Positions 1,196 through 11,182 of a DNA stretch of 64,000 nt are shown one piece after another. The notes beneath the pieces were generated by a model. It saw nothing but the letters and a program-made list of their open reading frames with translations. It was not told where the DNA came from and did not search any database. Location of the stretch: the NCBI RefSeq assembly GCF_900107625.1, contig NZ_FNQK01000004.1:124001-188000 (forward strand), written 5' to 3'. The translations under genes and the position numbers were made by a program. Each line of letters starts with the position of its first letter. Position 1 is the first letter of the stretch. The DNA is from Bizionia paragorgiae (GTDB lineage: Bacteria > Bacteroidota > Bacteroidia > Flavobacteriales > Flavobacteriaceae).

Positions 1196-1552
1196 TTAAC
1201 TAGGCCCACAATTTAAATTGTCTTTGTAGGGTGCTATGTATTTCCAATAGGCTTTACCTGCACTGACTAGATAATGAGAAGAATATTTCAGTTTTGTATC
1301 TGAAGCCACTTGATAGATATACTCGTCACAAGACATACTGTACTTTCTATTAAAACATACCACAGCAAAATATAAGTTGCCATTAGTAGATTTTACTTCA
1401 TAAAAGGTCACTTTAGAAATTGAAGTGCTTGTATAACTGGTATAAGTGGTCCCTGTGTTTTTGGATTTGATAAGCTCTATAAACTCATCACAGGTTTGTG
1501 CGCTGGTAGATATACTAAATAGTATAAGTAACGCCAGGATAATAGCTTTCAT
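1196..1552 (-). CDS. Small exported protein, KTSC-like
   Basis: The 118-residue protein has a clear Sec signal peptide (MKAIILALLILFSISTSAQ, cleavage after the SAQ). The mature part of about 99 residues contains four Cys (TCDEF, VVCF, SCDEY, NCG), which could form two disulfides in the periplasm. The segment 'STSISKVTFYEVK...YIYQVAS...YLVSAGKAYWKYI' loosely resembles a KTSC fold (SSxIxxVxY ... Y.Y..V), but the canonical KTSC tetrapeptide is not obvious. The gene lies downstream of a palindromic promoter element at 1649-1694 that is shared with other exported-protein genes here. Function unknown. Confidence 0.6.
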   Translation of the reverse strand: MKAIILALLILFSISTSAQTCDEFIELIKSKNTGTTYTSYTSTSISKVTFYEVKSTNGNLYFAVVCFNRKYSMSCDEYIYQVASDTKLKYSSHYLVSAGKAYWKYIAPYKDNLNCGPS

Positions 1553-1648
1553 TAGGTTGATTTTTTTTTAATCACATCAGCCCATAAAAAGATGCTCGTA
1601 AAAAGCATCATACTAAGCTATTGTAATACGGTTGTTTGGTTTGGGCTA

Positions 1649-1711
1649 TAAATATAGGAATTACAGTGTATCTATTACTGTAAAAAATCGTAATGAGAGG
1701 AAAATAATTTA
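1649..1711 (-). promoter_or_regulatory. Copy 1 of a 61-bp duplicated promoter element (palindrome plus -7-like box)
   Basis: Bases 1651-1711 are identical to 2430-2490. Inside is an inverted repeat ATTAC-N11-GTAAT (1674-1694), with a further ATTACAGTG 14 bp away in direct orientation. On the minus strand a -7-like box TATATTTA (1656-1649) lies 17 bp beyond the palindrome, so the palindrome occupies the usual -33 region. The predicted leader to the start at 1552 is about 90 nt. This is probably a regulated promoter for the 118-residue exported protein. The regulator is unknown. Confidence 0.55.
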
Positions 1712-1817
1712 AATTTAAAACAAAGACTTTTTTAAGTACTGACGCTCGCACATTTAAATCAATACAGACGTAGTGGAGCCCGACTACATGGCGGTTATAC
1801 AGCGCAATCTCAAGGCC

Positions 1818-2255
1818 TTAATTTCCATTTAAGTAATCATATTTCATAATTTCATCAAATTCATCGTCAATATTTTCATCGAATTTTAAATTATAAAGCA
1901 TCCATTCATCTTTGCTTTTATAATATTTGAAAATAAATCGTAATGGTTGCCTATCATATTTAACCAAATACACAGAGACTTTAAGACTTTTTCCAAGAGA
2001 TTTATCTGTCAGTTTTTCAAATCCGTTGTATTCGCCCATAAGGTTTGCATATTCCCTTAATTGAAATTTGACTTTTTCCGTTCCATCTTTATTTTCTCCC
2101 ATCCATTTATTAGTTCCGAAAATAAAGTCGAATGCCTCATCTGTATTAGATTCATACATTTTGAAGAATTTTGAAGTCAATTCATCAGTTGAATTTTGTC
2201 CAAAAGTAATTGAGGTAACTAAAATCAGACTTAAGAGTACTATTGTTTTTCTCAT
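1818..2255 (-). CDS. Exported hypothetical protein, DUF3887-like length
   Basis: The 145-residue protein starts with a signal peptide (MRKTIVLLSLILVTSITFGQ). The mature domain 'NSTDELTSKFFKMYESNTDEAFDFIFG...GEYNGFEKLTDK...VYLVKYDRQPLRFIFKYYKSKDEWMLYNLKFDEN' has the helix-then-curved-sheet pattern of small NTF2/DUF3887-like exported proteins, in which a final 'W.L.N..F' strand is typical. No catalytic residues can be named. A plus-strand frame at 2068-2262 is only its shadow. It is preceded by the second copy of the 61-bp promoter element at 2430-2490. Function unknown. Confidence 0.6.
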   Translation of the reverse strand: MRKTIVLLSLILVTSITFGQNSTDELTSKFFKMYESNTDEAFDFIFGTNKWMGENKDGTEKVKFQLREYANLMGEYNGFEKLTDKSLGKSLKVSVYLVKYDRQPLRFIFKYYKSKDEWMLYNLKFDENIDDEFDEIMKYDYLNGN

Positions 2256-2427
2256 CTTGTAGGTTTTCTTTGGTTTGGTTATATTTTACTTCGTTTTAAG
2301 CGTATTACAGTCTTATATTAATCTTTCCATAGGGTGAACGTTTGTCACAATTTGTCCTAAAAGAGTCATTGTTATTCTATACTAATAATACGCTGTGCTT
2401 ACGACAGTCGTTTAAGTCATAACGCTT

Positions 2428-2490
2428 GTAATATAGGAATTACAGTGTATCTATTACTGTAAAAAATCGTAATGAGAGGAAAATAATTTA
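2428..2490 (-). promoter_or_regulatory. Copy 2 of the 61-bp duplicated promoter element
   Basis: The element is identical over 61 bp to 1651-1711. The palindrome ATTAC-N11-GTAAT is at 2453-2473, and a weaker -7-like box TATATTAC (2435-2428) lies at the same 17-bp spacing. The predicted leader to the start codon at 2255 is about 168 nt. The whole gap 2256-2856 (601 bp) contains this element, a stray sbcC tail and a terminator, but no other gene that I can support. Confidence 0.5.
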
Positions 2491-2585
2491 TGCTTAGTAC
2501 TTCTGTAACCCCATAAACAACACTTTGACACGAGCTCTTTAAAAACCCATCGTGAGTTTTACCCACTAAAATCCCCTACTCCTCT

Positions 2586-2687
2586 TAACTCAGCCCCCAT
2601 TAAACAATCTCGATAGTACTATAGCCCGAGCCCATTTTTTCGAGTTTAATTTGTGTGGTAATCCGTTCTTTTAGGGCTTCGACATGC
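2586..2687 (-). pseudogene. Orphan copy of the 3' end of sbcC
   Basis: These 102 bp align without gaps to 5569-5670, the true sbcC end plus 14 bp of downstream flank, at 97/102 identities. The copy encodes the last 28 residues of SbcC (HVEALKERI...TIEIV) and a stop. Both coding differences are synonymous (Ile/Ile twice), the stop is TAA instead of TAG, and the other two differences lie outside the gene. It has no start codon or upstream domain, so it is a remnant. The pattern of purely silent differences suggests that it came from another functional sbcC allele. Confidence 0.85.
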
Positions 2688-2736
2688 AATTTACAGCGTG
2701 AAAAAATTCAGCTTAATCCGAAATTGGAGAAAAAAA

Positions 2737-2774
2737 AACAACATTATGGTTTATCTTAAAACCACAATGTTGTT
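2737..2774 (-). terminator. Rho-independent terminator for the 2857-3255 lipoprotein gene
   Basis: The 16-nt arms 2737-2752 and 2759-2774 pair with one mismatch around a 6-nt loop. Read on the minus strand, the stem runs directly into a U-tract (A8 on the plus strand at 2731-2738). It is about 80 nt beyond the lipoprotein stop codon. Confidence 0.75.
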
Positions 2775-2856
2775 AATATATTTCCAGGTATTCACCTTAA
2801 TGTCGTGCCGTTTTTAAGGACTACTACTTACCCTCTTCTTAACACGTAACGGCTAA

Positions 2857-3255
2857 TTATCCTTTATCTGATTTTTGTATTACTCCTGCTTTTAATAACT
2901 CTACATCACCTGGAGTCGCATTTCGAAAGTTGCTGTAAGATGCTGGAAATCCTTTAACGGTTATTTTTGAGTTAGAACCTTTAGTCTCTATATCGAAACT
3001 AGGCTCTATTAATATATCTGCATTCGATTTTTTTAAAGCTTCTCCTATTACCTTATTTTTAATTGCTTCTGAGGCTTCTTTTCCTAGAAACTCTAAAGTC
3101 GCAGAAACCTTTTCTTGTTTAACATTTAAATCTGCAACTACAGGAATATGCATTACTGTACCATACACATCTAAACTTTTTGCTGTTGATGATTTTGTTA
3201 CACTACAAGAAGTTATCACTGATGACAACATTAAACCTAAAATAATTTTCTTCAT
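2857..3255 (-). CDS. Small conserved lipoprotein
   Basis: The 132-residue protein has a type II signal ending in lipobox ITSC (Cys17). The mature part contains 'DVYGTVMHIPVVADLNVKQEKVSATLEF', an alternating beta pattern, then 'EALKKSNADILIEPSFDIETKGSNSKITVKGFPASYSNFR'. The latter resembles the 'ADVLVEPxFxI...V.V.GYPA.Y' block of small Bacteroidota lipoproteins of unknown role. The gene is monocistronic: a palindromic promoter element lies upstream (3409-3454) and a terminator downstream (2737-2774). It lies inside the 2.98-kb segment bounded by the two sbcC tails. Confidence 0.65.
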   Translation of the reverse strand: MKKIILGLMLSSVITSCSVTKSSTAKSLDVYGTVMHIPVVADLNVKQEKVSATLEFLGKEASEAIKNKVIGEALKKSNADILIEPSFDIETKGSNSKITVKGFPASYSNFRNATPGDVELLKAGVIQKSDKG

Positions 3256-3408
3256 TTTGTTTTTGTTTAAAATATACCTACTCCCGTTTTACGTCTTTTT
3301 TCGGCTTGTTCCGACTCTATTTATAACAATACAGTACACAGCCTATCCGACACATAAAGCAATCGCTTTACGTGTATGAACTGTTATAAAAATTATTAAT
3401 TAGCAGGG

Positions 3409-3454
3409 CTAAAATAAAAATTAGAAAACAGTTATTACTGTAAAAAATCGTAAC
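3409..3454 (-). promoter_or_regulatory. Third, diverged copy of the palindrome/-7 promoter element
   Basis: Bases 3433-3453 repeat the core of the 61-bp element exactly (TATTACTG, A-rich centre, CGTAA); the flank has diverged. On the minus strand a -7-like box TATTTTAG (3416-3409) follows at the same 17-bp spacing as in copies 1 and 2. The predicted leader to the start at 3255 is about 150 nt. The rest of the gap 3256-3694 (439 bp) shows no gene that I can support. Confidence 0.5.
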
Positions 3455-3694
3455 AAGAAAAAATAATTATAATTAAATTGGAAGGCCTCTCAATAATTTA
3501 ACATCACCATAGCTAAACTTACAGGGTTTACTGAACATTATACGCAAAGAATACTATTAAAAATCACCTTTTCAATCTAATTTCTATAATAAAAACAAAC
3601 TCAAAAAGGCAACTTTGAAGCCCCAAAAACAATGCTTTAAGAATAATAAAAAAGTTAACCAATGCTACTGAAGCAAAATTTAAAATAACAGCTA

Positions 3695-5329
3695 TTAATT
3701 TGCAAACTTTTCAGTTGCCTTCTTAACATTATTTTGTTGTAATAAATAGAATGAATACCCAAATTGTAATCTAGAATAATTCATATTTATATTATCAAAC
3801 TCACTAGTCATTTTGTAACGAACAAAAAGTCTCCCTGTTTGTGATAAATTTAAATTCATTCCAACACTAACGGTATTCAACCAACGGTTTTTAGGAACCG
3901 TATTCGTTTTATCTAAAGATACTAATTTCACATTATCGTCAAAAATATCAAACCAAGACAGCTTATTAGCTATTGTAAAATTCAATCTTTTTTCGGGTAA
4001 CAATACTATTTTTGCCTCAATAGGAACTTCCATATTATTTAGATATCTTTCTATATAATTTATATTTTCAATATCTTTTAATTCTTGAACAGTTGTTGTT
4101 TCACCATAGTGCTTGATTCCGGAACGTCCAAAAAGAAATCCTGCATCTATAGTAAGATTCATTTTGGTATTAGGGTTCTCAAATGTTAATATATTTAAGT
4201 TACCTCCAATAGCAAAAATACGGTGCTGATGCATTGAAATAAGTGTAAAAAACGGACTGACTATCGAAGAAGAAACTTCATCGTCTATAAAATTTTGAGG
4301 TTTTAAAAACTTATTACTTTGTTCTATTTTTGAAAACTCAAAAAACACATCAAAATATTGTGCGATTCCATAACCCGGAAAAGCCCACTTCACTTTACTC
4401 CACATGTCATGCCTTCGTGTATTCAAATTAAATCTCTTTTTAATTTCTGTTTGAATTTTACCATTTGGATTCCCTTCGTCAAACATAGCCAATAAGTCAC
4501 TGTAAACTTGAGCTTCAAATAACTTAGTTGTTTCATCCTTATATAAATTTGCATGATCATTATCTGGAGACAACCTTACTAATTGAGTAGCCGGACTAAT
4601 ATCGTTGGAATTTACGTCAATAATTTCTTCGTAATTAATCACATCACCTAACTTAACTCTATAATAGTCTTCTTCCCCTTTAATATTATATTTATACATG
4701 GAATAGAGTACAACATTTTTGAGTTGTTTTACATTACGGACAGAGCTTATCCCTATCGAATATATATTTCTAAAAACCACTTCTTCATCATTAATTATTC
4801 CTTTCAACATTATTTTCTCTATAAACCCATCATAAAAGGTGAAATCAGCTTGATAATCCTTAAGCTCTCCGAAATTACGTGGTTCCTCATTATTATTTTC
4901 TTTTCCTAAAACAGGTATATTTTTTCTCAAGGAAACAATTGCAATTAGAGGTTTTACATTATCAACTCTCAATTCAGTGATTAATTGTCCGTAAACAAAG
5001 CTGACCAAGTGCTTTACAGACTCCTTGTCTCCTTGGGTTTTTAAAGTTATAGTGTTATCACTAAGAAGTTCAGATAGCGCACTCTCTAATTTATTATCGA
5101 ATTCCTCAAAGCTAAGAGGTTTAATTTTAAAGGTTTTTGAAGTACTATTCAAAAGTAGTTTAAATTCAAAAATTCCATTAGAAGAAGGCATCACTTGAAT
5201 CAAAATATCTTCAGCAAATAAAGATTCCTGACTTACAAACGCCTTCACGTATTCCGAAGGTAATGTAGTGGTTTGTGCATAATTATGGCAAGTAACAAAT
5301 ACTAATAAAGCCCAGAAGATTTTTTTCAT
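3695..5329 (-). CDS. Large exported protein with outer-membrane-like C-terminal part
   Basis: The 544-residue protein carries a signal peptide (MKKIFWALLVFVTCHNYAQ). The N-terminal third has alternating strands. The middle includes 'WSKVKWAFPGYGIAQYFDVFFEFSKIEQ'. The C-terminal half has repeated amphipathic strands with aromatic ends (NLTIDAGFLFGRSG, LNTVSVGMNLNLSQTGRLFVRYKM, SRLQFGYSFYLL), as in a small outer-membrane beta barrel. I do not recognise a named family. It is the largest gene of the accessory stretch and lies between the two sbcC 3' ends. Its upstream gap (5330-5582, 253 bp) lacks the palindromic element of its neighbours. Confidence 0.6.
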   Translation of the reverse strand: MKKIFWALLVFVTCHNYAQTTTLPSEYVKAFVSQESLFAEDILIQVMPSSNGIFEFKLLLNSTSKTFKIKPLSFEEFDNKLESALSELLSDNTITLKTQGDKESVKHLVSFVYGQLITELRVDNVKPLIAIVSLRKNIPVLGKENNNEEPRNFGELKDYQADFTFYDGFIEKIMLKGIINDEEVVFRNIYSIGISSVRNVKQLKNVVLYSMYKYNIKGEEDYYRVKLGDVINYEEIIDVNSNDISPATQLVRLSPDNDHANLYKDETTKLFEAQVYSDLLAMFDEGNPNGKIQTEIKKRFNLNTRRHDMWSKVKWAFPGYGIAQYFDVFFEFSKIEQSNKFLKPQNFIDDEVSSSIVSPFFTLISMHQHRIFAIGGNLNILTFENPNTKMNLTIDAGFLFGRSGIKHYGETTTVQELKDIENINYIERYLNNMEVPIEAKIVLLPEKRLNFTIANKLSWFDIFDDNVKLVSLDKTNTVPKNRWLNTVSVGMNLNLSQTGRLFVRYKMTSEFDNINMNYSRLQFGYSFYLLQQNNVKKATEKFAN

Positions 5330-5582
5330 AATAATTAGGTTAGTTGGTTAGTAGTACAATACATTTTAAGCAATCGTAACTATTCCACGATAGAAACTTA
5401 AAACTCATTTTATATTGCCATAAACAACGGCTAACGTAATAGAAAAAAAGTAGAATGACTGATAGTCAATTGATTAATAGCTCTTACAAGATAGTAAATT
5501 TTAATAAAAATTTTGTATTAACATTAAAAATACTACAAATTAAGTATTGAAATAAAACCTTAGCCCCCTAACTCAGCACCCC

Positions 5583-8500
5583 CTAAACAATCTCTATAGT
5601 ACTATAGCCCGAGCCCATTTTTTCGAGTTTAATTTGTGTGGTTATCCGTTCTTTTAGGGCTTCGACATGCGAGATCACCCCTATAGACTTATCGCCTTCA
5701 TTTTGCATTTTCTCTAAAATGGTAATGGCTTGGTTTAGTGTTTCCGGATCTAAAGTCCCAAAGCCTTCATCGATAAAAATAGACTCTATTTTTACGTTCT
5801 TAGCGGCGAGGTCCGACAAGGCAAAGGCCATTGCCAAACTCACCATAAAGGTTTCACCTCCAGACAGGGTATTAATGGTTCTTCTGGCATCACCCTGATG
5901 CCTGTCTAACACTTTTAAGGCATCGTTTTTATCGGCTTCAGCGGCCGTAGGGATATCCAAAATATAGCGATCACTCAAGTCTTTTAAGCGTAAATTGGTA
6001 TAGCCTATTAATTGCTCTAGGGTTAAATCTTGAACAAAATTCGAAAACTTTTTACCGTTAGCATCCCCAATCAGGCTGTTCATGGTTTTCCATAGGCGCT
6101 CCTCCTTTTTTAGCGTCTTTAATTTTTCTAGAAGTTCTTCTTGCTTGGCTTTAATTTTTTTATCGGTTTCTAATCGGGTTAGAATCACACCTATCTGTTG
6201 GTTTGTACGCGCGGATTCCTCCTCGAGTGAAGTATATTTGTTTTGAAGCTCCTCTAAGCTATCTTCCGTGGTGATTGCTTTTTTAAACCCTTCTAGTTCT
6301 TTTAAGGCGGCAGTCTGCTCTGTTTTTAAACGCTCTTGTTTTAATTGCAGAGTGTTTTGCTGACGGCGGATGTTTTCGGCTTGGCTTTCACTAAGGATAT
6401 TGGCTTTTAACTCCTGAAGGCTGTCTATACCCTCCTGTTTCAGAATGTCTTTTAGCACCGTTTCAAAAGCGGATCGCTTTTTAGAGACCTCTTCAATTTT
6501 AGCGTTAAGTGTGGCTATGGTTTTTGTGGTATGACTTCGGTTTTGTGTGTTTGCCGACCATCGGTTTAGCAGTGTCTGAATGGTCTCCTGAAGTCCGTCG
6601 CCTTCATAAAGCGCCTTTCTTTTACTTTCCTTCTCTGCTTTTAACCTGGTCTTTTCTTCCCACAGTTTGACTGATGCTTTTAGATCTGTAATAAGATCAC
6701 GCAAATGCAGTGCTTTTTTTATCTGAGCAAGTTTTTTAGAGTCCTCCAAAAACTGAGCTTCTAAGCTTTCGATAGCGGCACTGGTTTTTACTGTTGCAAC
6801 CTCGAGGCTAGCACATAGTTTCTCTATAGCGGTGGCTTTAGGCTGCAGCGCTTTTTTAGCTTCTAACAATTCTTTTTGAAGTCGTTTACTGGTTGCCTGA
6901 TCGTTTTTTAATAGCGCTTGAGTGGATGCTTTTAACTCGCGTTTTGCATGTAACAGCTCCTTTTTAGTGCGTAACACATCGGCTTTCACATCAAAAACCG
7001 GCTGTTGAGAAGCAAAAGGGTGATCTAGGGCACCACAAAGTGGACAAGCCTCACCGTCTACCAATTGGTTACGGTGGGCTTCTAAACTTTGATGTGTTTT
7101 GCGGTGCTCCTCCGCTTTGGTGAGTTTGGTAACCTCAGCATCTAATACAGGAAGTTCCTTATCTAAGTCTTTTAAAATAGCACTGTGTTTTACCACCTGC
7201 GCCTCACTTCCTTTTAATTCTGTTTCCTTGCTTTGCTTTTGCTGGAGCTCCGATTGGTACTTGGTGAAAGCAACTTTTAGGCTACCAACGGCTGCCAAGC
7301 TCTCATTTACTTTGTTTTCTCTTGCTTCTAATTGGTGCGTCGTATCTACCTGAGCGGTTTTTAAAAAGCCTAGCACTTTATTTTCTACGGGAGTAATACC
7401 TGTTACAAATGTACTGGGTTGCCCATTGAAAGGAATTCTCACCGTATCTTTATTAATATCACCGAGTAACTTTTTAATAGCATCCTCATAGAGTTTTGCT
7501 TCGGTTTTTGCTAATTCCTCATCTTTTTTTAAGTTTGAATACTTGGTGTTTAATGTATTTAAAGCCTGATTAAATTCGCTAGGCTCTACCGGTTTTTTTA
7601 AAAGTGTTGTCGCTTGCTGAAGCAAATCGTTATAGTCTTTTAACACCGTTTTTTCATGTGCTGTTTGCTTGCTAAGCTCTTCGGTATGTTCTTTAAGCGC
7701 TTTATCCTTTTGTTCGTAATCGGAAATCAGCGGTGTATGCACCACGTATTTCGCGTGTTTTTGTAATCGGGATTCCTCTTTTTTAAACGCGTCTAGGTCT
7801 TTTGCTAATTGTTTCTGAAGGTTGTTATTGGTCTTTAAAACCAATTCATTTTTAAGGATCCCTTTTTTATTATCGATCTCAGCTTTTAAAACTTCAAGGG
7901 CTTTTTTCTGCGTTGTTTTTGCTTTTGTCAACTCCCTTTCCTGGGCGATCAGTTTGGTTTTCTCTTCTTCCGGGAGTAATTCCACTTCTTCTAAACGCAC
8001 CTCCTGAGTTTCGCGAGCGACTTTAGCATCCTTAAATTTTCTGTACACGGCGATACCTATCGCTCTATAATCTTTAGCCCCCGTAATATCCTCTAGCAGT
8101 TTGTTGCGCTCATCGCGTTTCGCTTTTAGCAATTTACTAAACTGACCTTGAGATAATACAATGGCTTTTACAAACTGGTCGTAACTCAACCCTATAAGCG
8201 CTTCGTTTTTTGCAGGAACCGATGACTTGCCACTGTCGATAATAGCACCCGTTGCCACATCAGTTATCTCTTGCTTACGGTCTTTTAAATTGTTGTTTCT
8301 ATTGCGTTCTATAGACCAGTGTGAGCGGTAGGTTTTCCCTTCCACGATATACTCGACTTCCGCATAGCAGTCGGTAGCATTTCGAGTCATTATCCCCCCT
8401 TGGTCTTCTATAACCGTTTCGGTAATAGCGCCAATACGAGGTACTTTATTAAACAGCGCAAGGGTAATAACATCTAAAAGCGTCGATTTCCCAGAACCTG

Positions 8501-8615
8501 TCGCTCCGGTTATTGCGAAGAGTCCACTCTCGGCCAAAGGTCCAGAAGAAAAATCGATATGATGTTCGCCACGTAGCGAATGAATGTTTTTAAAACTGAT
8601 TTTACTGATTTTCAT
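5583..8615 (-). CDS. sbcC: SbcC exonuclease subunit (Rad50-type ATPase)
   Basis: SbcC is the ATPase subunit of the SbcCD (Mre11-Rad50-like) complex that opens DNA hairpins and processes double-strand ends. Visible here are Walker A GATGSGKST at residues 37-45, long coiled-coil arms, the zinc-hook CPLC at 524-527, the ABC signature LSGGE and Walker B 'IFIDEGFGTLD' near the C-terminus. Length (1010 residues) is normal. It follows sbcD by 9 bp on the same strand, so the two are surely co-transcribed. Its last 28 codons occur again at 2586-2687, with silent changes only. Confidence 0.97.
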   Translation of the reverse strand: MKISKISFKNIHSLRGEHHIDFSSGPLAESGLFAITGATGSGKSTLLDVITLALFNKVPRIGAITETVIEDQGGIMTRNATDCYAEVEYIVEGKTYRSHWSIERNRNNNLKDRKQEITDVATGAIIDSGKSSVPAKNEALIGLSYDQFVKAIVLSQGQFSKLLKAKRDERNKLLEDITGAKDYRAIGIAVYRKFKDAKVARETQEVRLEEVELLPEEEKTKLIAQERELTKAKTTQKKALEVLKAEIDNKKGILKNELVLKTNNNLQKQLAKDLDAFKKEESRLQKHAKYVVHTPLISDYEQKDKALKEHTEELSKQTAHEKTVLKDYNDLLQQATTLLKKPVEPSEFNQALNTLNTKYSNLKKDEELAKTEAKLYEDAIKKLLGDINKDTVRIPFNGQPSTFVTGITPVENKVLGFLKTAQVDTTHQLEARENKVNESLAAVGSLKVAFTKYQSELQQKQSKETELKGSEAQVVKHSAILKDLDKELPVLDAEVTKLTKAEEHRKTHQSLEAHRNQLVDGEACPLCGALDHPFASQQPVFDVKADVLRTKKELLHAKRELKASTQALLKNDQATSKRLQKELLEAKKALQPKATAIEKLCASLEVATVKTSAAIESLEAQFLEDSKKLAQIKKALHLRDLITDLKASVKLWEEKTRLKAEKESKRKALYEGDGLQETIQTLLNRWSANTQNRSHTTKTIATLNAKIEEVSKKRSAFETVLKDILKQEGIDSLQELKANILSESQAENIRRQQNTLQLKQERLKTEQTAALKELEGFKKAITTEDSLEELQNKYTSLEEESARTNQQIGVILTRLETDKKIKAKQEELLEKLKTLKKEERLWKTMNSLIGDANGKKFSNFVQDLTLEQLIGYTNLRLKDLSDRYILDIPTAAEADKNDALKVLDRHQGDARRTINTLSGGETFMVSLAMAFALSDLAAKNVKIESIFIDEGFGTLDPETLNQAITILEKMQNEGDKSIGVISHVEALKERITTQIKLEKMGSGYSTIEIV

Positions 8616-8624
8616 AACTACAAC

Positions 8625-9824
8625 TTACAGGTTTAGGTCTTCTAAAATTTGACGAAAGGCATTTTTTAAAGCTTCGGTGTCTTCCTGGCTACCATCCATT
8701 TCCAACTTTTTCTCGAACATTTCCATGGGCGTCACATCGGCAACACTTATCCCTGGTTGAAATCCTTCGGAAGCACCACGGACTTTATTTGTAAACATCA
8801 ATTTTGTTTTTACAATCTCGAGATACTCACTATCGAAGTTCTCTACCAAAGCATCCAAATCTTGTCGCGTTTGAATATTTTCATCGGCTTCGGTAACACT
8901 AATTTCCGCTAGGGACCGCAGTGGGGTCTCATGATTATAATTTTGTAATTGTGAGCTCACGTCGTCTAGAGTCCCCTGAAAAGTGACTAAATTTCTAAAT
9001 TTCGGAATCGGTAGAATGGTGACCTCCATAGATTCCCCATCGGTAGAAATGATATTGACTTGCTTGGTTTCTTCCTTTTCACTAAAGCTTAAAGCTACTG
9101 GTGACCCGGAGTAGTAGATGTGTTTGGATGCCGATACAGGATACGGCTTATGAATGTGTCCCAAAGCCACATAGTTGGGGTCATCGCCAAAAATACTACC
9201 GCTAACTCCGGCTTGATTTCCTATTTGAATGTCTCTCATACTTTCTGAAACATGAGCTCCCTGAACATATAAATGTCCCATAACAATAAAGAAGGTATCG
9301 GGATAATGGGTTTTATAATAAGCGTTCACATTAGAGTAATAGGTTTCTAATCCGCCTTTAATCTGCGCTATTTTATCACTATAAGATTCTCCGGCTACCG
9401 ATTTTCGGATATCCCGATCTTTTAAAAAAGGTACAGCAGCCACCACCACGCGCTGGTCGTCTTTAGTATATTCAAAAAACAAATCGCTAATAGCTTCTGG
9501 TGCTCCACCAACCACATCCACATCCAAAACACTTAAAATGTCTTTAGGAGCGTTTAATACCGAAGCGGAATCGTGATTCCCCCCAGTAATAAGCAGTTTA
9601 CAATCGGTTCCTAGCATCCGTTTTAAAAAACTGTAATACTGTTTTAATGAGGCTTGCGAGGGATTGGCTTGATCAAACACATCTCCAGAGACTAAAAGTA
9701 AGTCTATGTTCTGTTCTTTTATGGTCTTTAGTAGCCAATCGAAAAACAAATCGATATCTTGAGATAAATCGGTTTTGTGCAACTGCTTACCAATATGCCA
9801 GTCTGAGGTGTGTAGTATATTCAT
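8625..9824 (-). CDS. sbcD: SbcD exonuclease subunit (Mre11-type nuclease)
   Basis: SbcD is the metallophosphoesterase nuclease of SbcCD. Metal-binding motifs are in order: DWH at 8-10, GDVFD at 47-51, GGNHD at 81-85, GHLYVQGAH and GHIHKPY further on. The protein is 399 residues, as expected for the family. It is the first gene of sbcDC, with sbcC starting 9 bp after its stop. A likely -7 box (TAATTTTG on the minus strand, plus coordinates 9905-9912) lies about 80 bp upstream. The remaining gap up to 10151 holds only that box and a terminator. Confidence 0.97.
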   Translation of the reverse strand: MNILHTSDWHIGKQLHKTDLSQDIDLFFDWLLKTIKEQNIDLLLVSGDVFDQANPSQASLKQYYSFLKRMLGTDCKLLITGGNHDSASVLNAPKDILSVLDVDVVGGAPEAISDLFFEYTKDDQRVVVAAVPFLKDRDIRKSVAGESYSDKIAQIKGGLETYYSNVNAYYKTHYPDTFFIVMGHLYVQGAHVSESMRDIQIGNQAGVSGSIFGDDPNYVALGHIHKPYPVSASKHIYYSGSPVALSFSEKEETKQVNIISTDGESMEVTILPIPKFRNLVTFQGTLDDVSSQLQNYNHETPLRSLAEISVTEADENIQTRQDLDALVENFDSEYLEIVKTKLMFTNKVRGASEGFQPGISVADVTPMEMFEKKLEMDGSQEDTEALKNAFRQILEDLNL

Positions 9825-9904
9825 ATAACTATTAAGTCTTGTAATCTCGTGTTTTGGGTTGATTGCTATCGCTAGTACGTTATAAGGTGTTGACTGCGGA
9901 CCTA

Positions 9905-9912
9905 CAAAATTA
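9905..9912 (-). promoter_or_regulatory. Probable -7 box for sbcD-sbcC
   Basis: The minus strand reads TAATTTTG, a full match to the Bacteroidota TAnnTTTG -7 consensus, about 80 nt upstream of the sbcD start. No clear TTTG -33 box is visible at the usual distance, so this is a motif-only call. Confidence 0.35.
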
Positions 9913-10094
9913 TCAATAATTATATATTCTGTCCTGAAACCATCACTTTATTGTACTACTGAATTGCTCCTGTTTTCAAAAATAGGATTTACTAGGTAAT
10001 TAACTTCAATTTTAATAAGGAATAGCTACCGACTTTAAAGAATTAAGGAATGTAACACTTCTTATTCCGATTAATTTACACCATAAAACTAAAA

Positions 10095-10119
10095 AAGGAC
10101 GCCAATGATTGGCGTCCTT
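10095..10119 (-). terminator. Terminator for the M57 peptidase gene
   Basis: There is a perfect 12-bp stem (10095-10106 with 10108-10119). On the minus strand it is followed by a U-rich tract. It lies 32 nt past the metallopeptidase stop codon. Confidence 0.8.
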
Positions 10120-10151
10120 ATATCTCATTTTATAAAAAACAAGCTCAACTT

Positions 10152-11006
10152 CTAATACATATATTGCAGACCAATAATATCATCACTATCAAATTCTCCA
10201 TTTTCATTAGAGCTAAAACAAGCCACCATAATAGAGTTAGGGTTGTATCCTGAAGATGTCCCTGGAATGGCGATAGCGCCTACACCAGCTGTACCTTCAT
10301 TTGTATTTTGACCACAACTTTGTCTGGTATTCCAATCGGTATGTCTAAAACCTACGGAATGCCCGATTTCATGTGTGATTACGTGCTCTACAACATTGGT
10401 GTCATAATTATCTAGACCATGAATTTGCACGTACTTATATGGTTTTCCATTACTAGGAAAACCTGCCGATCCTCCTGCTCCAGATTGATTAGGGTTATGG
10501 TATACTACCATATCTTTATTTTGGTAATCGGTACCAAAACTAAGCGTAAATGATATAGACACCCCACTTAAGTTATTGTAATTATTTACCGCCCATTGTA
10601 GCGCCGTTTTTTCTTTAGTAGAAAGTCCTTGACCACCACCACCGGTATATCCGATAATAGAAATATTTCTACCATAAGACACGAGATTATTGGTACGATA
10701 ATTTCTATCGGTAACCCCCATTCCAATGTTAAGGTCCATTATTTGCTTCTCGCTCATAATAATATCTTCTTCTACCTGATACATCTCTTTAGTGGAACCG
10801 TCAGGCAATAGAAAGTCAATTTTCTTTACACCATCGGTATTCATATAAAACTCTGCTAGTTTGTTGATAATAACCTCAGGAACTTCGGTAGACTCTGATA
10901 AATCTAAGGTGTTAATTTCCGATTCGTTAAGATCTTCTTTCTGACACGACTGAAAAAACAAGCCTGATGAAATAATTGCTATTATAAGTATTCTATAATT
11001 TTTCAT
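10152..11006 (-). CDS. M57 'HEIGH' zinc metallopeptidase lipoprotein
   Basis: The 284-residue lipoprotein has the lipobox Cys at 21 (FFQSC). The catalytic site is HEIGHSVGFRH at 212-222: His212, His216 and His222 bind zinc and Glu213 is the base. This is the signature of peptidase family M57 (dual-action HEIGH peptidases), which is common in Bacteroidota. A glycine-rich loop (TGGGGQG) precedes the catalytic domain. It is likely exported and surface- or periplasm-bound, degrading extracellular protein. The upstream region carries two separate palindromes (11042-11055 and 11163-11182) and a good -7 box; a terminator follows. The gene is monocistronic. Confidence 0.9.
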   Translation of the reverse strand: MKNYRILIIAIISSGLFFQSCQKEDLNESEINTLDLSESTEVPEVIINKLAEFYMNTDGVKKIDFLLPDGSTKEMYQVEEDIIMSEKQIMDLNIGMGVTDRNYRTNNLVSYGRNISIIGYTGGGGQGLSTKEKTALQWAVNNYNNLSGVSISFTLSFGTDYQNKDMVVYHNPNQSGAGGSAGFPSNGKPYKYVQIHGLDNYDTNVVEHVITHEIGHSVGFRHTDWNTRQSCGQNTNEGTAGVGAIAIPGTSSGYNPNSIMVACFSSNENGEFDSDDIIGLQYMY

Positions 11007-11041
11007 TTTATTTTAGGGAATTTAATTATTAATTAATGACC

Positions 11042-11055
11042 TGTTTACGTAAACA
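11042..11055. promoter_or_regulatory. Perfect 14-bp palindrome in the peptidase leader
   Basis: TGTTTACGTAAACA is a perfect palindrome located 36-49 bp upstream of the peptidase start codon, downstream of the predicted transcription start. Its position suits an operator or leader element. No regulator can be named. Confidence 0.4.
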
Positions 11056-11135
11056 ATAAGCATAATTCATCACTACCAGTTGTTTATAAATGAGAACTGA
11101 CAAACTATGATTTTAGAATAAATTTATTTCTTGAC

Positions 11136-11182
11136 CAAATGTACTATTTATAAAATAAATCGATTACGGCAAAAACCGTAAT
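11136..11182 (-). promoter_or_regulatory. Promoter of the M57 peptidase with ATTACGG/CCGTAAT palindrome
   Basis: The minus strand has TACATTTG (11143-11136), a full TAnnTTTG match. A 20-bp palindrome with 7-bp arms, ATTACGG-N6-CCGTAAT (11163-11182), lies 19 bp upstream. Its centre is 41-42 bp from the predicted start of transcription, where class II activators bind. The layout matches the three elements upstream of the small exported-protein genes in 1.6-3.5 kb. The rest of the gap 11007-11382 shows nothing else that I can support. Confidence 0.55.

Follow-up and report, generated by a model that had tools for sequence, protein, structure and literature searches.

Activators of the AraC family offer the closest described parallels to the promoter element reported here. 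In the portion of the XylS paper used here (PMC5481539), this regulator of the Pm promoter of the TOL plasmid is described as an AraC-family helix-turn-helix (HTH) protein, one monomer of which occupies a 15-base-pair (bp) unit by reading two 4-bp boxes, TGCA and GGTA, separated by 6 bp within each repeat. ToxT of Vibrio cholerae, again an activator of the AraC family, controls protein genes and also TarB, a small RNA (sRNA) with a Rho-independent terminator, according to the part of its description available (PMC3136459). For the family to which the present organism belongs, the sections of a study of Flavobacterium psychrophilum used here give sigma-factor motifs, among them TAnnTTTG for sigma-A and a form termed SM5, TAnnTTGY (PMC9723704). 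Here we analyse a stretch of 64,000 nucleotides (nt) from Bizionia paragorgiae (contig NZ_FNQK01000004.1, positions 124,001 to 188,000), hereafter the window, in which three genes on the minus strand are preceded by a 20-bp operator-like element and, at a fixed distance from it, a -7-like promoter box. The element recurs across the genus and is probably the operator of an AraC-family protein whose gene is followed by a putative sRNA gene.

Read toward the genes, the unit consists of TTACGAWTTTTTACARTAAW, 17 bp of spacer and the box TAnnTT, and it is asymmetric, with two TTAC boxes spaced 10 bp. The 20-mer occurs 12 times with up to 3 mismatches in the organism's own genome (3.14 Mb, 40 contigs), as against once for a reversed control, and ten sites share the design TTACGAWTTTTTACARTAAW, 17 bp, TATWTT. 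A sequence model recovered ten sites at expectation values (E) of 3.5e-8 or lower, followed by a match at 1e-3 without the box and then by noise; this search is partly circular, since the model was built from 9 of the 10 strong sites, and results from congeners, Polaribacter and the locus L176 are free of that circularity. The other two Bizionia genomes in the sample yielded 18 and 11 model matches at E of 0.01 or lower, and only two of the 37 non-Bizionia genomes in the same sample had any match, all at 1e-4 or weaker.

Geometry was counted over all 36 distinct Bizionia sites with at most 3 mismatches in the examined loci, a set that leaves aside sites with at least 4 mismatches or an indel (for example L067:7079, L070:2295 and L065:505). 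The TAnnTT box follows after exactly 17 bp in 30 of them, and no site has it at 16 bp or at 18-24 bp; the six sites without it at 17 bp are L004, L012, L061:606, L061:1508, L072 and L073. In 10 sites the box occurs additionally at 10 bp, within spacer sequence common to many. The boxes spaced 10 bp agree at all five positions in 25 sites, at four in 10 and at three in one. A TTG 17-23 bp before the box was found in a single site and is absent from the other 35, so that a -33 element is not recognisable, and this lack, together with the fixed spacing, is the arrangement of a class II promoter.

The activator was left unnamed in a preliminary description of the window, and a specific candidate is now available: an AraC-family protein of 267 amino acids (aa) encoded outside the window at G000:C23:70606-71406, where G000 is the organism's own genome. 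This protein and its Polaribacter relative score 46.6 and 45.8 bits against the Pfam family HTH_18 (cut-off 33.6) and 25.2 and 29.1 bits against the N-terminal domain DUF6597 (cut-off 27), and against the named AraC equivalogs of NCBIfam, whose cut-off is 200, the two proteins reach 26 to 27 bits at best. The assignment is based on position, presence and absence, and geometry. An orthologous site follows the stop codon of the araC-like gene (267 or 282 aa) by 13 nt in all three Bizionia genomes; B. saleffrena HFD is one strain with the module. Scanning 84,980 species for the exact pattern, in a collection that may omit records very close to the window's genome, returned 14 stretches, 13 from Bizionia and one from Polaribacter sp. 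IC073, and the latter starts 19 nt short of the end of an araC-like gene whose product is 38% identical to that of B. paragorgiae. Clear members of the subfamily are present in 13 of 299 Flavobacteriaceae genomes, themselves a sample of a larger group (at least 148 bits; next match 88), and TTACGN5TTACA begins 0-22 nt past the stop codon in every one of these 13 genes, as opposed to none of 16 other AraC relatives searched from -25 to +300 nt of the stop (17 loci, one not scorable). An extra member, found among 296 genomes of the order, has its site 3 nt past the stop, followed after 22 bp by TATATTTG.

The order of araC gene, operator and terminator is plain in these loci, and the gene and the sites occur together. 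The bipartite pattern TTACGWWWTTTTACA-N22-TANNTT is found without mismatch in 11 of 13 carriers of the subfamily and in none of 11 non-carriers. Exact matches number 10, 11 and 8 in the three Bizionia genomes, and six of the 10 non-Bizionia carriers have a single one, at the araC locus. Genome G283 has three, two of which lie 72 and 83 bp before the starts of genes for an outer-membrane barrel protein and for a protein that, by eye, looks exported; in G184 the exact match is upstream of araC and the downstream site has one mismatch. Taken jointly, we consider it likely, though well short of certain, that this AraC-family protein regulates the Bizionia operators, the three in the window included, as one regulon of this genus.

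Behind the operator at the araC locus comes a TAnnTT box, at a distance from the 15-bp core of 22 bp in 14 of 15 loci and of 23 bp in L109 (by eye). The 124-153 nt after the box have a longest closed open reading frame (ORF) of at most 18 aa in all 15 loci and end in a hairpin and T run, the terminator of L176 having been recognised by eye. This stretch has a conserved AGTTAAGGGATTC loop, and AAATGAAAGTTAAGGGATTCATTT is common to 9 of 14 aligned loci, some of them one change off. Covariation is slight, with both sides changed in 2 of 18 pairs. The mean folding z is -3.66 with the terminator, and 14 values calculated without the last 42 nt range from -2.60 to +0.51; most of the folding strength comes from the terminator. 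No Rfam family exceeded its gathering threshold in the 9 of 15 loci searched, the nearest being DapZ (31.7 of 56) and STnc320 (28.8 of 50). With its own promoter-like box, no ORF and an intrinsic terminator, the region behind the araC operator has the features of an sRNA gene, and is best described as a putative one.

In the mechanism that we propose, an AraC monomer would set its two HTH motifs on the two TTAC boxes, which are one helical turn apart, and the bound protein would take over the polymerase contact that the missing -33 element would otherwise make. With the end of the 20-mer 17 bp ahead of the box, and a TTG at 17-23 bp in just one of the 36 sites, these promoters are most simply explained by class II activation. 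The oldest target would be the putative sRNA, transcribed from directly behind the regulator gene, and the protein would presumably sense a signal. In Bizionia the operator would also serve further units, which in the organism's own genome encode mostly small exported proteins.

Several observations weigh against this proposal. XylS uses two repeats (PMC5481539, as far as the text used here goes), whereas the present sites have a single unit of 15-20 bp; only one 20-bp unit is conserved over the 61 aligned columns, and a degenerate second unit further upstream was not searched for. The carriers G085 and G187 have no exact bipartite match, and once one mismatch is allowed 3 of the 11 non-carriers match, among which the reversed control gives 5 matches. 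The site lies behind araC rather than before it in all checked carriers but G184, which has both, so autoregulation is not evident. Structure prediction for the AraC-like protein (3 sequences) was of low confidence, with a mean predicted local distance difference test score of 43.5, and was not used.

Some other regulator might bind the sites, such as a response regulator of the OmpR/PhoB type, with the araC-sRNA locus as merely one of its targets. Direct repeats of 10 bp fit the OmpR/PhoB family, TTTAC-N5-TTTAC reversed is GTAAA-N5-GTAAA, like the CpxR box, and three proteins with a Trans_reg_C domain are encoded in the organism's own genome. However, the three response-regulator loci contain only resemblances with 3 to 5 mismatches and without a box, and PhoB-like regulators are widespread, whereas the exact bipartite sites track the araC subfamily in both presence and absence; we regard binding by another regulator as unlikely. 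A WYL regulator, brought into consideration by its place next to the site at C17:120910, was set aside because the AraC link holds across genera. That the same AraC-like protein binds the sites but represses has a slightly smaller chance still of being correct. Each site adjoins the region that polymerase would cover, and the sigma-A form of the box is exact in four of the 36 sites; the near-universal lack of a TTG at 17-23 bp nevertheless makes the promoters look activator-dependent.

A reading of the sites as nothing more than the ends of dispersed repeat DNA, without regulatory meaning, might be argued from window sites 1 and 2, which form an exact 61-bp repeat, and from a leader of about 150 nt shared by many congener sites. 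Against this, the 20-mer and the 17-bp distance are kept between unrelated flanks while the spacer varies: in a set of 33 sites there are 27 distinct spacers with a mean identity of 53%, and the distinct 20-mers are 84% identical. This diversity beside a conserved 20-mer speaks for a working promoter rather than for a repeat that has simply been copied (the 33 sites were picked with attention to the box, and the box counts above were redone on all 36). The araC-linked copy is, moreover, present in other genera, and we hold the repeat explanation to be very improbable. Activation by the AraC-family protein remains the preferred account.

Within the window (Table 1), the 21-mer occurs three times with up to 3 mismatches against 0.02 expected, and the sequence model, whose training set included sites 1 and 3, reports sites 1-3 at E values of 1e-14, 2e-13 and 8e-11, the next four matches having E values of 3 to 5. 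Sites 1 and 2 are not independent, because both lie in the 61-bp direct repeat; across the same 61 bp the flank of site 3 is 70% like theirs. The relative of the 118-aa protein gene in B. saleffrena (G001_C4) has an identical operator and spacing.

Table 1. Positions of the promoter elements, target genes, palindromes and shared leaders (window coordinates unless a contig or locus is named)
Feature	Location	Strand	Remarks
Operator 1	1674..1693	-	TTACGATTTTTTACAGTAAT; two TTAC boxes spaced 10 bp
-7-like box, promoter 1	1649..1656	-	TATATTTA; operator 17 bp away
118-aa exported protein	1196..1552	-	without Pfam family
Operator 2	2453..2472	-	20-mer of operator 1, inside exact 61-bp copy of operator 1 region
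-7-like box, promoter 2	2428..2435	-	TATATTAC; operator 17 bp away
145-aa exported protein	1818..2255	-	weak resemblance to MlaC, under cut-off
Operator 3	3434..3453	-	20-mer of operators 1 and 2; flank mostly different
-7-like box, promoter 3	3409..3416	-	TATTTTAG; operator 17 bp away
132-aa lipoprotein	2857..3255	-	lipobox by eye; without Pfam family
Palindrome of other family	11163..11182	-	ahead of M57 peptidase gene; judged outside regulon
Second palindrome family	window 11163-11182; G000 C13:128022, C35:23896, C36:34490, C33:252209		
Shared leader of about 150 nt behind operator-promoter	L008, L047, L050, L051, L053, L055, L056, L058, L067, L070		most end near ACTAAGTT

Between promoter 1 and the gene of the 118-aa protein, the leader has a terminator-like hairpin with a T run at 1586-1612 (minus strand); locus L059 of B. 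saleffrena and L006 have similar hairpins (by eye). The window hairpin could be an attenuator or give rise to a short RNA. About 110 bp upstream of operator 2 lies one copy of a duplicated sbcC 3' end (2581-2687 and 5564-5670; 107 nt, 93%), and the operator at C17:120910 has a diverged sbcC piece (G000:C17:121047-121117; 71 bp, 75%) about 120 bp upstream. Repeated sbcC pieces upstream of operators suggest repeated insertion or duplication behind sbcC.

The preliminary description had proposed a single promoter layout for four genes, with a palindrome, ATTAC-N10/11-GTAAT, replacing the -33 element of a dedicated, activator-dependent class at fixed spacing. The stretches and distances that it gave are exact, with minus-strand boxes after 17, 17, 17 and 19 bp, and all four sites do lie upstream of minus-strand genes whose products begin with a signal peptide or lipobox (by eye). 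The common layout, the fixed spacing and the missing -33 element hold for sites 1-3; the fourth site, at 11163-11182, is a different sequence and drops out. The palindrome itself did not survive as the operator. In the window it is found 4 times against 0.28 expected (1674, 2453, 11163 and 14672, site 3 not being included), and the genome scan that had been suggested to check it gave 28 places against 22 for the reversed control, which is near background; the outer ATTAC and GTAAT arms pair fully in 3 of the 36 Bizionia sites.

Nor does the M57 peptidase gene behind the fourth site belong to the regulon, as had been supposed. Even in its best alignment the site has 8 mismatches to the 20-mer (at least 8 in any), and the sequence model did not report it at E of 10 or lower in the window scan. 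After 19 bp it is followed on the minus strand by TACATTTG, and it belongs to a palindrome family of the form ATTACGGyNNNNrCCGTAAT, which is represented in the genome by four near-identical copies of ATTACGGyAAAAACCGTAAT and by one variant. Their settings are mixed and include the space between convergent or divergent genes, a position behind a gene and, twice, one ahead of a lipoprotein-like gene; in the last setting, that of the window and C36 copies, a TACATTTR box stands at 19 and 20 bp (TACATTTG and TACATTTA, respectively). This family could be a separate small promoter class outside the AraC regulon. Upstream regions of M57 relatives were also compared (seven relatives, from 60 genomes of the family besides the organism's own): TTACGG and CCGTAA are absent from the 330 nt upstream of five of the seven, L169 was not scorable, and L164 has a partial TTTACGGgaaaACCGC.

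The ten strong sites of the organism's own genome stand before eight protein genes and the putative sRNA, with one facing an IS110-type transposase gene. In keeping with the earlier claim of a preference for exported-protein genes, 7 of the 8 protein targets pass a signal-peptide rule that 13 of 49 ORFs in the window pass (Fisher p 0.0018); the fractions are 5/13 and 3/8 in the congeners and 15/29 for the three genomes together (p 0.023), by a crude home-made rule, not SignalP, that misses clear cases such as G002_C308. The site facing the transposase gene (named by eye) is a strong operator-promoter at G000:C29:259025-259067 (L007), and its original target may have been displaced.

About a dozen congener sites are followed by the shared leader, which precedes unrelated genes, including those for a PHP-AAA protein and a KAP NTPase; behind another congener site an HsdR-like gene stands in second place, and one further site is followed by an HsdM-like gene (by eye). 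The leader may be a structured RNA or a recombination end. As to a consensus fold, RNAalifold gave no pairs, and the mean single-sequence z over 12 leaders was -1.21; as to an integron attC site, no integron integrase (TIGR02249) exceeded its cut-off in any of the three Bizionia genomes. In both of its halves, but below the cut-off, the integron integrase model matches a tyrosine recombinase of about 390-400 aa at G000:C19:8643-9449, which has relatives in both congener genomes, and group II intron pieces lie near some regulon genes of B. saleffrena (L055, L067). It is conceivable, though we think it rather doubtful, that in Bizionia a module which has one target elsewhere (AraC activator, operator and adjacent sRNA) came to control a pool of accessory genes. 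Often joined to a leader stopping near ACTAAGTT, the operator-promoter would then travel as an expression head before unrelated genes (exported, KAP NTPase, PHP-AAA, restriction-modification), newly acquired genes would enter one regulon, and the co-regulated sRNA would be able to tune the output of these genes.

An unnamed motif thereby becomes a testable circuit, composed of a regulator gene, a 15-20 bp operator of fixed geometry, an adjacent putative sRNA and a list of targets, and regulators that combine a predicted operator with a conserved sRNA alongside are, to our knowledge, rare in Flavobacteriaceae. One exact site in most other carriers against 8-11 in Bizionia makes a clean case of regulon growth, and, if the shared leaders hold up, a portable promoter would be seen to connect acquired genes to a host regulon. 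As judged from sequence, these data point to control of a group of proteins, most of them exported, by an AraC-type switch in a marine bacterium. A limited search of the open-licence PubMed Central literature returned no description of this AraC operator and sRNA system, and the literature on MliR of Bizionia argentinensis, in the parts available, concerns other genes.

How the proposed system relates to those described elsewhere can be set out at three levels. At the promoter box, the Bizionia sites resemble the SM5 form of F. psychrophilum (13 of 36) and the sigma-A form (4 of 36), and the TTAC-N6-TTAC upstream element is not among the motifs given in the sections of that study used here (PMC9723704). 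At the operator, the site core, TTAC-N6-TTAC, has the box spacing of the XylS unit, with TTAC and TTAC in place of TGCA and GGTA (PMC5481539, in the portion cited above). At the level of the circuit, ToxT with TarB appears to be the nearest functional parallel that we have seen, as an AraC-family activator set over protein genes and an sRNA with a Rho-independent terminator (PMC3136459, in the part available); unlike in that system, the putative sRNA gene of Bizionia and its relatives lies directly behind the gene of its candidate regulator.

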